Assembly: GCA_904420465.1 (NCBI GenBank)
Contig: CAJFVL010000009.1
Span: 1-40,360, forward strand
DNA: 40,360 bases
From: an uncultured Clostridium sp.
Lineage (GTDB): Bacteria; Bacillota; Clostridia; Oscillospirales; Oscillospiraceae
Direction: 5' to 3'
The notes beneath the pieces are model-generated. The model was not told the DNA's origin. It made no database searches and saw only the letters and a program-made list of their open reading frames with translations. Every line of letters starts with the position of its first letter. The stretch's first letter is position 1. Below, in pieces: positions 37,816-40,360 of this stretch. Both the position numbers and the translations under genes were made by a program.

Positions 37816-38334
37816 TCAGCGCCCCTCCTCCGGGCAGTAATAGCGGTCCTCCCGCCATTTGGCGGGGTTGGTCTCGATGTAATCCCAAATACGCAGATAG
37901 TCGGCGTCGTTGCGGACCACATGGTCATGGTAGCCCTTTTGCCATACATCCATGTGGGCCAGTTTGGACACGGCCCGTTTCATTTGCCCCACAATAGTAG
38001 ACAGCCCTTTTGTAGGGGCGGATATCATCCGCCCGTTTTGCTCCCCCAGCGTTAACAGGATATGGACATGGTTTGGCATGATCACATATTGATCCAGGGT
38101 CACATTGGCATACCGGCGCGGCATCTCCAAAATGGCATTTTCCACGATCAGGCCCAGGTCAGATAATTGGATTGGACGCGGGCGGATGATATCCGCCCCT
38201 ACGCCCGTGTCAGGAACGTCCTCCACCCAAAACAAGGGCACCCGGTCCTTGGTGCAGATGGTGACAAAATAGCACCCCGGTTGTCCATAATCATACCCCC
38301 GCAGGCGGTTAGGCTTTCGCACGGGCCGCTCCAT
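37816..38334 (-). CDS. RAYT: REP-associated tyrosine (Y1) transposase
   Basis: The 172-residue protein opens with MERPVRKPNRLRGYDYGQPG, then CYFVTICTKDR. The HUH metal motif is NHVH (residues 88-91, in VIMPNHVHILL) and the catalytic Tyr152 is in IWDYIETNPAKW. RAYTs nick and join single-stranded DNA at REP palindromes and are usually single-copy, apparently domesticated genes. Two exact inverted copies of a 24-base palindrome lie inside this gene and encode residues about 45-52 and 100-108, away from the catalytic motifs. A third, variant copy is at 39718. The ATG is two bases after the XRE gene stop, so both are probably made from one mRNA. Confidence 0.92.
   Translation of the reverse strand: MERPVRKPNRLRGYDYGQPGCYFVTICTKDRVPLFWVEDVPDTGVGADIIRPRPIQLSDLGLIVENAILEMPRRYANVTLDQYVIMPNHVHILLTLGEQNGRMISAPTKGLSTIVGQMKRAVSKLAHMDVWQKGYHDHVVRNDADYLRIWDYIETNPAKWREDRYYCPEEGR
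38012..38035 (+). repeat. REP-like palindrome, copy A (inside RAYT gene)
   Basis: This is a 24-base unit of the form GTAGGGGCG, nine-base core GATATCATC, then CGCCCG. The arms GGGCGGAT and ATCCGCCC pair around a 3-base loop. It is the exact reverse complement of copy B at 38179-38202 and reads in frame in the RAYT protein as NGRMISAPT. Confidence 0.9.
38179..38202 (-). repeat. REP-like palindrome, copy B (inside RAYT gene)
   Basis: Identical to copy A but inverted relative to it, 143 bases away. On the plus strand it reads CGGGCG, core GATGATATC, then CGCCCCTAC. It encodes GVGADIIRP in the RAYT protein. Confidence 0.9.
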
Positions 38335-38335
38335 G

Positions 38336-38566
38336 TCAGGGGTTGACCTCACGGTTGTCCGTGCGGCCCAGCAGGTAATCCGCGGAGACATGGAAATAAT
38401 CTGCCAAAAAATTCAACATGGAAGCAGAAATATTGACCTTTCCATATTCGACTTTTTGGTAGTGGCTGGTAGTACACCCCATCTGTCCTGCCATATCCTT
38501 CTGCGTCAAGCCCGCCTCTTCACGCAGGTCTTTGAGCCGCTCTCCCAATATTTTCAGCAATTCCAT
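38336..38566 (-). CDS. XRE-family helix-turn-helix regulator
   Basis: The 76-residue protein is almost entirely a Cro/CI helix-turn-helix: LGERLKDLREEAGLTQKDMA, then GCTTSHYQKVEYGKVNIS, then FLADYFHVSADYLLGRTDN, which is the usual C-terminal segment. It is transcribed divergently from a small protein gene across a gap that contains a consensus promoter and two direct repeats, its probable operators. It is immediately upstream of the RAYT gene on the same strand, so it may control RAYT expression. No partner toxin gene is evident. Confidence 0.9.
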   Translation of the reverse strand: MELLKILGERLKDLREEAGLTQKDMAGQMGCTTSHYQKVEYGKVNISASMLNFLADYFHVSADYLLGRTDNREVNP

Positions 38567-38897: not shown

Positions 38898-39010
38898 GCG
38901 CATCAGGCGTGGCTGCCCGCCTACCGCCCACGGTGTATGTTCGGAAACTTAGGCGCATGTTATCCTGCAGAAGTGAGAGATTCATCAACTGAGTAGAACG
39001 GCAGTGATGT

Positions 39011-39120
39011 CGTCGTCGCAAAGTCCATTTCACTCCGAACACCCTGGCGGGTATCCGTCGCTCCATTCCCTTGCTCCTCCTCTCCAAACCATGACCACTT
39101 CGTTGGGTCATGGTTTGGGG
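39011..39120 (-). ncRNA. Structured repeat element, copy 1
   Basis: On the minus strand it has a 13-pair hairpin (39118-39106 with 39096-39084, 9-base loop). A purine-rich linker with GGAGGAGCAAGGGA follows, then a nine-pair hairpin (39057-39049 with 39044-39036) and the tail GGACTTTGCGACGACG. The second hairpin has two G-U pairs when read on the minus strand that become A-C mismatches on the plus strand, so the RNA would be minus-strand. Copy 2 has the same plan. No promoter was located. It may be an RNA or a DNA repeat with dyads. Confidence 0.55.
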
Positions 39121-39415
39121 GCGGCCTTTGGCCGCCTTTCAAATAGACTCCATTCAAGAGGGCACCGCGCCGGCCGCAAGTGCCGGGGCACCCCTTCTAC
39201 ACTCCCGTAAACTAGGGGGTCCGGGGGAGTGGCGAGCGAAAGCCCGAGGCCGCAGGCCGAGGACTTTCCATCGAGCCATTCTCCCGGCGATTTTTTGGTT
39301 CCTTTTGCATCGCTGCAAAAGGAACTCGCCGCCGCAGCGGCGAAACCTCTGTTTCGTTTTTTTAGGGGATGTTCCGCCTGCGGGCGGGCTACTTTCCAAA
39401 GAAGGAAAGTAACCG
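39121..39415. other. Hairpin-rich spacer between the two structured copies
   Basis: No gene is supported. Perfect stems include TTCCTTTTGCA (39299-39309) with TGCAAAAGGAA (39314-39324), a CGCCGC/GCGGCG hairpin near 39326-39342, and ACTTTCC/GGAAAGT near 39391-39410. Together with copies 1 and 2 it may form one composite repeat of about 520 bases. The minus-strand open frame through it is low-complexity and unlikely to be translated. Confidence 0.5.
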
Positions 39416-39527
39416 CGTCGTCGCAAAGTCCGCTTTGTTCGGGACACCCAGGTTTGGGTATCCCTCACGCCGCTCCCTTGCTCCTCCTTTCCAACCATGA
39501 ACCGCTCCGCTGGGTTCATGGTTGGGG
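39416..39527 (-). ncRNA. Structured repeat element, copy 2
   Basis: It has the same order as copy 1, 405 bases away: a 13-pair hairpin (39525-39513 with 39503-39491, again a 9-base loop), the purine linker with GGAGGAGCAAGGGA, a nine-pair hairpin (39464-39456 with 39449-39441) and the tail GGACTTTGCGACGACG. Stem sequences differ from copy 1 on both arms in matching fashion. This is what selection on folding would give. Confidence 0.55.
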
Positions 39528-39795
39528 GCCAATAGCGAGCCTGCGGGCCCGGACCCAGGAGAGTTGCGCTGTTTCGTCGTCAATCCCGTCCGGCGCGGTG
39601 CCATCAGGAAGGGTGTCTAACCGTTATCGCTACCGCTCTGCTCAATAGACGGGACAGATACTTCTATAAGATGATCTGCGTCTAAGTGGTGCAACATACA
39701 TCGTGGGCAGTGGTCGGCGGGCGCACACTGTGCGCCCCTACGGAGAAAACGCGGGGCATGGACCCGCCCTGTGCGGGCAGAAAGAGGCGGCCCGG
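39528..39795. other. Intergenic, REP copy C only
   Basis: No gene is supported here. The stretch contains REP-like copy C and GC-rich short inverted repeats (for example CCCGCCCTGTGCGGG at 39763-39777). Short minus-strand open frames have no ribosome-binding site. Confidence 0.4.
39718..39741 (-). repeat. REP-like palindrome, variant copy C
   Basis: On the plus strand it reads CGGGCG, core CACACTGTG, then CGCCCCTAC: the same 24-base length and flanks as copy B with a different core. In both cores the outer three bases pair with each other (GAT/ATC, CAC/GTG), so the change keeps the hairpin. It lies in non-coding DNA 55 bases before the displaced uvrB end. Confidence 0.85.
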
Positions 39796-39868
39796 TCACT
39801 TTCCTCTCAGCTCGATAATTTGGTCTCGTAACGCGGCGGCCAGCTCGAACTCCAGCATCTTGGCCGCC
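39796..39868 (-). pseudogene. Displaced duplicate of the uvrB 3' end
   Basis: The minus strand encodes AAKMLEFELAAALRDQIIEL then RGK and TGA, identical in protein to the end of uvrB at 40016-40088, 220 bases away. The DNA differs at about a dozen positions, all silent, plus an identical 36-base stretch at the gene-internal side and 24 identical bases after the stop (39773-39796 and 39993-40016). The piece is cut off at about 39868 and has no start. It derives from a real uvrB, not from random similarity. Confidence 0.88.
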
Positions 39869-40015
39869 GCCCCACGGGCAAAGCCCGCGGGGACCCCAAT
39901 CATTTTATATCCTCGGCGGAAATGAATTCCGCCTGCGGCAATTCTCCGCTCCGCTTCGAATTGACGCGCCATCCGGCGCGCCCGCGCTGTGCGCGGGCAG
40001 AAAGAGGCGGCCCGG
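39869..40015. other. Hairpin-rich insert between the two uvrB ends
   Basis: No gene. It contains dyads such as GGCGGAA/TTCCGCC (near 39916-39934), CAATTC/GAATTG (near 39938-39963) and CCCGCGC/GCGCGGG (39981-39997). Its size and content suit a small non-autonomous repeat. Confidence 0.5.
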
Positions 40016-40360
40016 TTACTTCCCCCGCAATTCGATGATCTGATCCCGCAGTGCGGCGGCCAGCTCGAACTCCAGCATCTTGGCCGCCTCTTTCATCTCC
40101 TTCTCCAGCTTGGCGATGCGCTCGGCCTTCTGCTGCTTGGTCATCGCCTTCACCTCGCCCCGGCGCTCGGCGTCGTCCGCCTCGTCCTGGGCGGTGATAT
40201 CCAGCAGGTCCCGCACCGACTTGACCACCGTCTTGGGGACGATGCCGTGGGCCTTGTTGTAGGCGTCCTGCTTCTCCCGGCGGCGCTCGGTCTCGTCCAT
40301 GGCCCGGCGCATGGAGGGGGTGATGGTGTCGGCGTACAGGATGACCATGCCGTCGGCGTT
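40016..40360 (-). CDS. uvrB: Excinuclease ABC subunit B, C-terminal part
   Basis: The minus-strand frame is open to the window edge and ends in TAA at 40018-40016; the start lies outside. It covers the end of the UvrB helicase core (NADGMVILYADTITPSMRRA, then MDETERRREKQDAYNKAHG and VPKTVVKSVRDLL) and the C-terminal UVR coiled-coil motif (IAKLEKEMKEAAKMLEFELA), which contacts UvrC. UvrB verifies damage loaded by UvrA. The stop region is duplicated 220 bases downstream. uvrA is on the same strand 5.4 kb further on. Confidence 0.95.
   Translation of the reverse strand, partial: NADGMVILYADTITPSMRRAMDETERRREKQDAYNKAHGIVPKTVVKSVRDLLDITAQDEADDAERRGEVKAMTKQQKAERIAKLEKEMKEAAKMLEFELAAALRDQIIELRGK

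Follow-up and report, generated by a model that had tools for sequence, protein, structure and literature searches.

Two copies of a short folded sequence lie on the minus strand of the window (the whole stretch of DNA analysed here, 40,360 nt) and belong to a family that is real, large and apparently uncatalogued, which many related genomes contain, the richest of them in a few dozen copies. The element seems to combine an RNA-type fold with the behaviour of a mobile repeat. Our leading, still tentative, proposal is that it is a non-autonomous structured-RNA element that folds from the minus strand and whose insertion occurs through its 3' end, possibly by way of an RNA copy and with machinery acting in trans. 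Speaking for this proposal are covariation, the RNA-type hairpin 2, the pattern at the 3' end, duplicated gene ends lying flush with the element, a site at the presumed tpi gene, a sense bias relative to neighbouring genes and copies at the borders of RNA genes; speaking against it are the lack of RVT_1 matches in copy-rich genomes, the rarity of truncation, two loci that break the pattern (the pair L079/L080 and the tpi site of L121) and hairpin-1 loops of a stable-DNA type.

The preliminary description had placed the two copies at 39011-39120 and 39416-39527, and the limits given by the R1 covariance model agree with this to 1-2 nt: on the minus strand, copy 1 (109 nt) occupies 39010..39118 (114.6 bits; RNA fold z -6.1) and copy 2 (111 nt) occupies 39415..39525 (110.0 bits; RNA fold z -5.9), with 79% identity between them by BLAST. 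Copy 1 consists of (i) hairpin 1 at 39084..39118, 13-14 bp with the inner sequence AC-GAA-GT (R3, 73.4 bits; covariation of helix 1), and (ii) the linker AGAGGAGGA, hairpin 2 and the tail GACGACGA at 39010..39083 (RNA z -5.5, DNA z +0.4; pair counts), the linker pairing with the tail through tandem G·A. In copy 2 the corresponding parts are hairpin 1 at 39491..39525 (R3, 70.8 bits) and the linker, hairpin 2 and the tail GACGACGC at 39415..39490 (RNA z -5.7, DNA z -3.1), in which the DNA fold keeps the tip and the lower stems differ. The stem-1 sequences and the changes from C-G to G-C and from G-U to G-C in the second stem all read as previously reported, and the nine-pair second hairpin exists; it is only the tip of hairpin 2, the stem of which goes on below it. 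Measured against shuffled sequence, the plus-strand RNA fold has a z of -3.0 in both copies, compared with -6.1 and -5.9 on the minus strand. Copy 2 is carried by a larger dispersed repeat unit (39145..39723), the extent of which is shared in blocks with loci L065, L067 and L068 of the same genome; inverted-repeat comparison gives this unit imperfect inverted arms (39144-39185 / 39578-39619).

Across the family, hairpin 1 has the form CC...GG, with 13-14 bp and a small inner cap, usually GC-GNA-GC, and is followed by one A and then by hairpin 2, a single long irregular hairpin of short helices and G·A loops. At the base of hairpin 2 the linker GAGGAGGA is paired with the tail GACGACGA by tandem G·A steps between single G-C pairs, the inner step being wholly or partly Watson-Crick in about one third of copies; then come GCAAGG/CTTTGC (6 bp), two successive 2-bp helices and a 9-bp tip, with purine internal loops between them. 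The R1 model comprises 39 of 42 distinct copies, three divergent ones having been excluded by eye. When 40 named pairs were tested in 39 distinct copies, 88.8% of cells were paired and 27 pairs had double-sided changes. The covariation score was 0.404, compared with 0.137 in shuffles that ignore relatedness (0/500 reached 0.404) and with at most 0.089 in slid controls that retain it. One G·U pair is invariant (39/39 copies) and one U·G pair nearly so (36/39). The covariation supports the fold of one strand, the minus strand, as had been suspected from the two window copies. RNA energies reproduce the covarying helices of hairpin 2 in all five copies tried (z -5.4 to -7.2); with DNA energies the tip is kept, the 6-bp stem survives in two copies and the short helices are lost (z +0.4 to -3.1).

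By same-genus BLASTN, matches were found in 45 of 61 genomes, own genome counted. Searches with R1, in which copy numbers are lower bounds because part of each genome's candidates was scored, recovered, at E <= 0.01, at least 22 copies from the own genome, of which at least 16 reach E <= 1e-8. Matches occur in 29 of 33 same-genus genomes, the richest with at least 37 copies, in 108 of 150 same-family genomes (59 of 72 genera) and, phylum-wide, in 7 of 398 genomes, some of them from distant families in which the form is diverged. Among IMG/VR viral contigs three of four pattern scans were positive, and 26 loci yielded 47 R1 matches, some from overlapping records; the plasmid and phage collections gave no match. 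A pattern scan of genome contigs gave 17 matches, of which the one inspected looks coding and the other 16, from scattered organisms, were judged to be chance. For the analyses below, 166 R1 matches were reduced to a set of 152 copies by leaving out evident repeats; 150 copies collapsed by similar flanks to 99 distinct ones, which were used for flank, start-codon and orientation counts, and 34 of the 47 viral matches were carried on, 32 after collapse. Two arrangements were observed in passing: a regular array of four copies in one orientation with 230 nt spacing (G016:C1:324151-324948), and 3-5 element matches, mostly in one orientation, in the stretch examined of each of the viral contigs L285, L288, L289 and L363, L285 and L289 being one and the same contig. 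Moreover, 56 of 132 hairpin-1 matches in seven genomes have no recognised hairpin 2, pointing to more subfamilies with other second hairpins.

The comparison with Rfam proposed in the preliminary description gave nothing at the gathering threshold of Rfam 15 in the window, and 19 further loci gave tRNAs only; below threshold, five weak matches fall in 38900-39700, two of them overlapping the elements. Among the titles and abstracts that our literature search returned, none describes such a family. PMC8040213 reports 3161 motifs predicted from human (HMP2) microbiomes, and the present motif may already be among them.

With respect to mobility, we compared the ends of same-genome pairs with at least 86% element identity that lie outside the larger repeated units in which the element is found in G584 (a unit of ~300 nt), in G009/G026 and, for copy 2, in the window. 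Fifteen such pairs share 14-214 nt of 5' flank, and in 11 of them the shared 3' flank is only 0-5 nt; in the remaining four it is 9, 17 (score 2), 36 (two tRNAs, score 6) and 38 nt. When the single-element copy L154 of G584 is set against 11 unit copies one by one, the flank in common is 6-31 nt on the 5' side and 0-2 nt on the 3' side. The pair L079/L080, from a diverged subfamily, is reversed, with 1 nt of 5' and 66 nt of 3' flank shared, and several other same-genome pairs share little flank on either side. With an exact 3' end and a variable 5' side in 11 of the 15 pairs, the 3' end mostly behaves as one boundary of the mobile unit and the 5' boundary is loose, and from this exact common 3' end with variable 5' extensions in most near-identical copies we infer that the family is mobile. 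The earlier suggestion of a structured RNA or a hairpin-dependent mobile repeat is borne out by covariation, dispersed copies and the fixed 3' end common to most near-identical ones. The bases 3' of the element are biased, with G at +1 in 52, at +2 in 68 and at +4 in 57 of the 99 distinct copies. The frequent 5'-truncated copies looked for as a SINE-like trait were not found: in seven genomes, 5 of 81 hairpin-2 matches are without a hairpin-1 match, and four of these five still fit the full model.

The element is oriented with respect to its neighbours. By codon scoring, the upstream gene reads in the sense of the element in 48 and against it in 8 of 99 host copies (43 uncalled), and in 13 and 2 of 32 viral copies (17 uncalled), i.e. 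61 sense versus 10 antisense with 60 of 131 copies uncalled. For the downstream gene the sense:antisense counts are 38:15 in hosts (46 uncalled) and 19:4 in viral contigs (9 uncalled). Codon scoring was preferred to the longest open reading frame, whose signs were mixed and which was considered unreliable at high GC. Of 152 copies, 13 have RNA genes predicted by ARAGORN no more than 400 nt away; in 11 of the 152 the 3' end of the element either reaches into a tRNA or tmRNA gene or lies at most 3 nt from it, and four of these 11 occupy the same tRNA-Gln site in different genomes. Three further flanks hold what we take, by eye, to be two tmRNA starts and one 23S rRNA start.

In 26 of 146 copies the stretch just upstream of the element is duplicated flush behind it, compared with 2 of 144 when flanks were swapped. 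These duplicates start at most 4 nt into the 3' flank, are 23-136 nt long and 85-100% identical and, by reading, usually correspond to the last part of the upstream gene. Some of these cases are interdependent, since several genes turn up in more than one genome. Inspection by eye shows many duplicates running as far as the stop codon or to within a few codons of it; in L089 and L126 the duplicate finishes at a terminator-like T-run. Between the two duplicate junctions compared (L036 and L132), the reading frame that passes through the element differs. An alternative control with shifted flanks (17, 10, 3 and 10 of 146) was confounded, as long duplicates stay visible, and was replaced by the swapped flanks. 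The gene names tpi, SMC-like, ilvC-like and tnpB-like used here are presumptive, profile searches having supplied only uvrB, uvrA and RAYT. The tpi site could be aligned in 30 of 33 same-genus genomes. It is occupied in G009 and empty in the close relative G026 (99.3% identity over the 300 nt before the junction), and within G009 the identity between the two duplicates is 97.3%, compared with 94.6% between either of them and G026. Because they are closer to each other than to G026, the duplication looks local and recent; alternatively, the empty site in G026 reflects loss by recombination. In L232 the duplicates are likewise nearest each other (94.6%). In L121 they are 90.5% alike, the 5' one is nearer another genome (94.6%), and the changes at the protein level in the 3' one are what a decaying copy would show. 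The duplicates are thus mutually closest in two of three testable genomes; two more tpi loci, in which a second element interrupts the duplicate, were left out of scoring.

Combining these data, we suggest that the working form of the element would be a folded RNA read from the minus strand, that an RNA copy with the element at its 3' end would serve as template for insertion at a nick, and that the inserting enzymes would be supplied in trans. RNA-templated insertion at a nick would give a fixed 3' junction, a variable 5' end and a target duplication, and copies would persist where they are harmless, i.e. behind a restored gene end, beside stable-RNA genes and between co-transcribed genes. 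This scheme fits the anatomy best, and the missing reverse transcriptase is the main objection to it: at E <= 1e-5 no RVT_1 was found in G000, G009, G019, G027, G028, G032, G037 and G039 (at least 5-30 copies each). RVT_1 occurs in 22 of 33 genomes without tracking copy number and was not found in the own genome; of four copy-less genomes, three are without it and G050 has five matches. A reverse transcriptase may have been lost after the spread. The 120 of 146 copies with no flush duplication also count against the scheme.

Alternatively, the element could be a single-stranded DNA element, either REP/PATE-like with a Y1/HUH transposase or copied from its 3' end by a one-ended, IS91/ISCR-like rolling-circle mechanism, a reading that we consider unlikely. 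It draws on hairpin 1, which, unlike hairpin 2, folds with DNA energies and in which wobble pairs are rare (8 of 312 cells, columns 3-10). The hairpin-1 loop is readable in 124 of 152 copies and is GNA in 101 and GNNA in 14 (eight are GNRA); GNA and GNNA loops belong to a class that PMC4686876 describes as extraordinarily stable minihairpin DNA. A fixed end opposite a variable one would also suit one-ended copying, and the window holds a gene for a REP-associated tyrosine transposase, RAYT (37816-38391, minus strand; NCBIfam REP_Tyr_transpos, E 2.9e-20, 72.7 bits with a cut-off of 80). The short helices of hairpin 2, however, are absent with DNA energies, and the evidence on RNA versus DNA weighs towards RNA, not decisively. 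Nor does a partner follow the element: with a Pfam profile that scores RAYTs weakly and may miss some, no Y1_Tnp was found in the copy-rich genomes G009 (at least 30 copies) and G027 (at least 25), G041 and G050 have Y1 and no copies, and the 22 of 33 genomes with Y1_Tnp show no tracking of copy number. The RAYT of the window has its own GTAG-footed repeats inside the gene, where a perfect 24-bp inverted pair GTAGGGGCGGATATCATCCGCCCG lies at 38012-38035 / 38179-38202. RAYT was rejected as partner on these two grounds, the independence of Y1 counts from copy number and the separate family of GTAG-footed repeats. Finally, there is no clear replication-strand bias in the two complete genomes scored by hand from noisy sampled GC skew, in which 11 of 25 assigned copies are on the leading strand (7 of 12 assigned in G011, where 14 were found, and 4 of 13 in G010); in G007 the skew was too noisy and this genome was left out. 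By eye, a RAYT-like frame follows the duplicated SMC-like gene end in four genomes (L027, L031, L125 and, as a remnant, L132).

Two further readings appear improbable to us. In the first, the element is mainly a functional cis-acting RNA of 3'UTRs or intercistronic regions, with its own AGGAGG ribosome-binding motif, and is spread passively by recombination and phages. The sense bias to the upstream gene and the highly conserved linker would be expected of such an RNA, and four of the seven copies found outside the bacterial family (L084, L087, L090 and L091, from two genomes) end one nt ahead of an ATG that begins an open frame. Across the distinct copies, however, an ATG with an open frame at 0-5 nt is found in 6 of 98, compared with 25 of 864 shifted positions; no neighbour gene is common to the copies in the flanks examined, and recent same-genome copies are mostly unlike in the 3' flank. 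In the second, equally doubtful to us, the element is a homing cassette in which insertion is guided back to the same gene-end site by a short stretch, immediately 5' of the element, that repeats the target junction in inverted form. An inverted match of 12-26 nt to the junction region lies upstream of the element in 14 of 27 flush-duplicate copies; twelve of these matches cross the junction itself and begin 5-13 nt ahead of the element, and control windows from the same gene score lower in 13 of the 14 cases (those with a control), these 14 deriving from about six gene targets. Moreover, tpi, the SMC-like gene and the ilvC-like gene are each targeted in several genomes and, by eye, several tpi guides have a common mismatch and most empty tpi alleles are without the inverted copy. 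Against homing, 13 of the 27 cases have no inverted match, the junctions of other, partly homologous cases equal the score in 32 of 702 comparisons, and insertion itself could have generated the inverted copy; as a general rule, complementarity between 5' and 3' flanks was rejected, being not significant over the 99 distinct copies (p = 0.07).

Least probable, and in our judgement very doubtful, is the full scheme of a bacterial SINE-like element, in which a gene-less structured RNA would be reverse-transcribed in trans from its fixed 3' end and directed to gene ends by a guide on its 5' side, the target duplication rebuilding the end. Non-coding structure, a fixed 3' end and target duplications of variable length are shared with SINE-type retroelements and target-primed insertion, but no reverse transcriptase partner was found, truncated copies are rare and no poly(A) or simple tail was seen. 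Two other candidate partners were discarded. Copies L020, L040, L169 and L174 lie, by eye, at a tnpB-like 3' end; as the tnpB-like sequence seems to resume after the element, tnpB was taken as a target, and the idea of a tnpB right end was rejected. For IscB/omega-RNA, by reasoning, the orientation of the guide does not fit.

Among known systems, the REP/BIME repeats with their RAYT (TnpA-REP) are likewise short, non-coding, dispersed, multi-copy hairpin repeats, and a RAYT gene lies in the same window; the element differs from them by its two-hairpin RNA-type fold, by a copy number that does not follow Y1 and by lacking a GT[AG]G foot, no position exceeding 0.3 bits in the last 24 nt of the 5' flank in 99 distinct copies. 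ERIC/RU, BOX and other SLFs are structured intergenic repeats of about 100 nt, as is the element, which is probably set apart from them by having mostly one fixed end, a 5' extension of variable length, duplicated gene ends lying flush with it and inverted copies of the junction. PATEs and MITEs derived from IS200/IS605 are likewise small non-autonomous hairpin repeats, from which the element differs in having no defined left end or tetranucleotide and no terminal inverted repeats of its own, while the link of orientation to the lagging-strand template that marks IS200/IS605 was not clearly seen in the noisy assignment of two genomes; nor does it have the fixed-length duplications of DNA-transposon MITEs, its 5' ends being variable and its duplicates differing in length. 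According to PMC6006769, RAYT genes of subclass 2.4 hold double-foot REPs inside the gene, and the RAYT of the window is like them. What distinguishes the element from the repeat types compared here is its apparent insertion, through one fixed end, at the borders of genes.

If our leading proposal is right, a folded element that rewrites gene ends is present, in several to a few dozen copies each, in many genomes of a single bacterial family and lies between the genes of viral contigs as well; one-ended insertion of an RNA fold would then join the few known ways in which short bacterial repeats spread. The covariance model makes the element searchable and, even with an ordinary mechanism, the duplicated ends of genes such as tpi matter to annotators.

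A comparable arrangement is seen at the uvrB end in the window. The end of uvrB itself (39985..40088, minus strand, with its stop at 40016; UvrB profile matches) and its duplicate (39765..39868, minus strand) form a 104-nt direct repeat with 85% identity, and an inverted junction copy, GGCCGCCTCTTTC, lies in the former at 40000-40012, with its counterpart at 39780-39792. One nt before the duplicated end is the hairpin CCCCGCGGGCTTTGCCCGTGGGG (39870..39892, minus strand; DNA fold z -2.1), which resembles hairpin 1 alone, has no hairpin 2 and is matched by neither R1 nor R3. This hairpin is a possible reduced relative of the element. The uvrB 3' end is duplicated behind a hairpin in the same arrangement as in the flush-duplicate cases, which raises the possibility that smaller hairpins insert in the same way.
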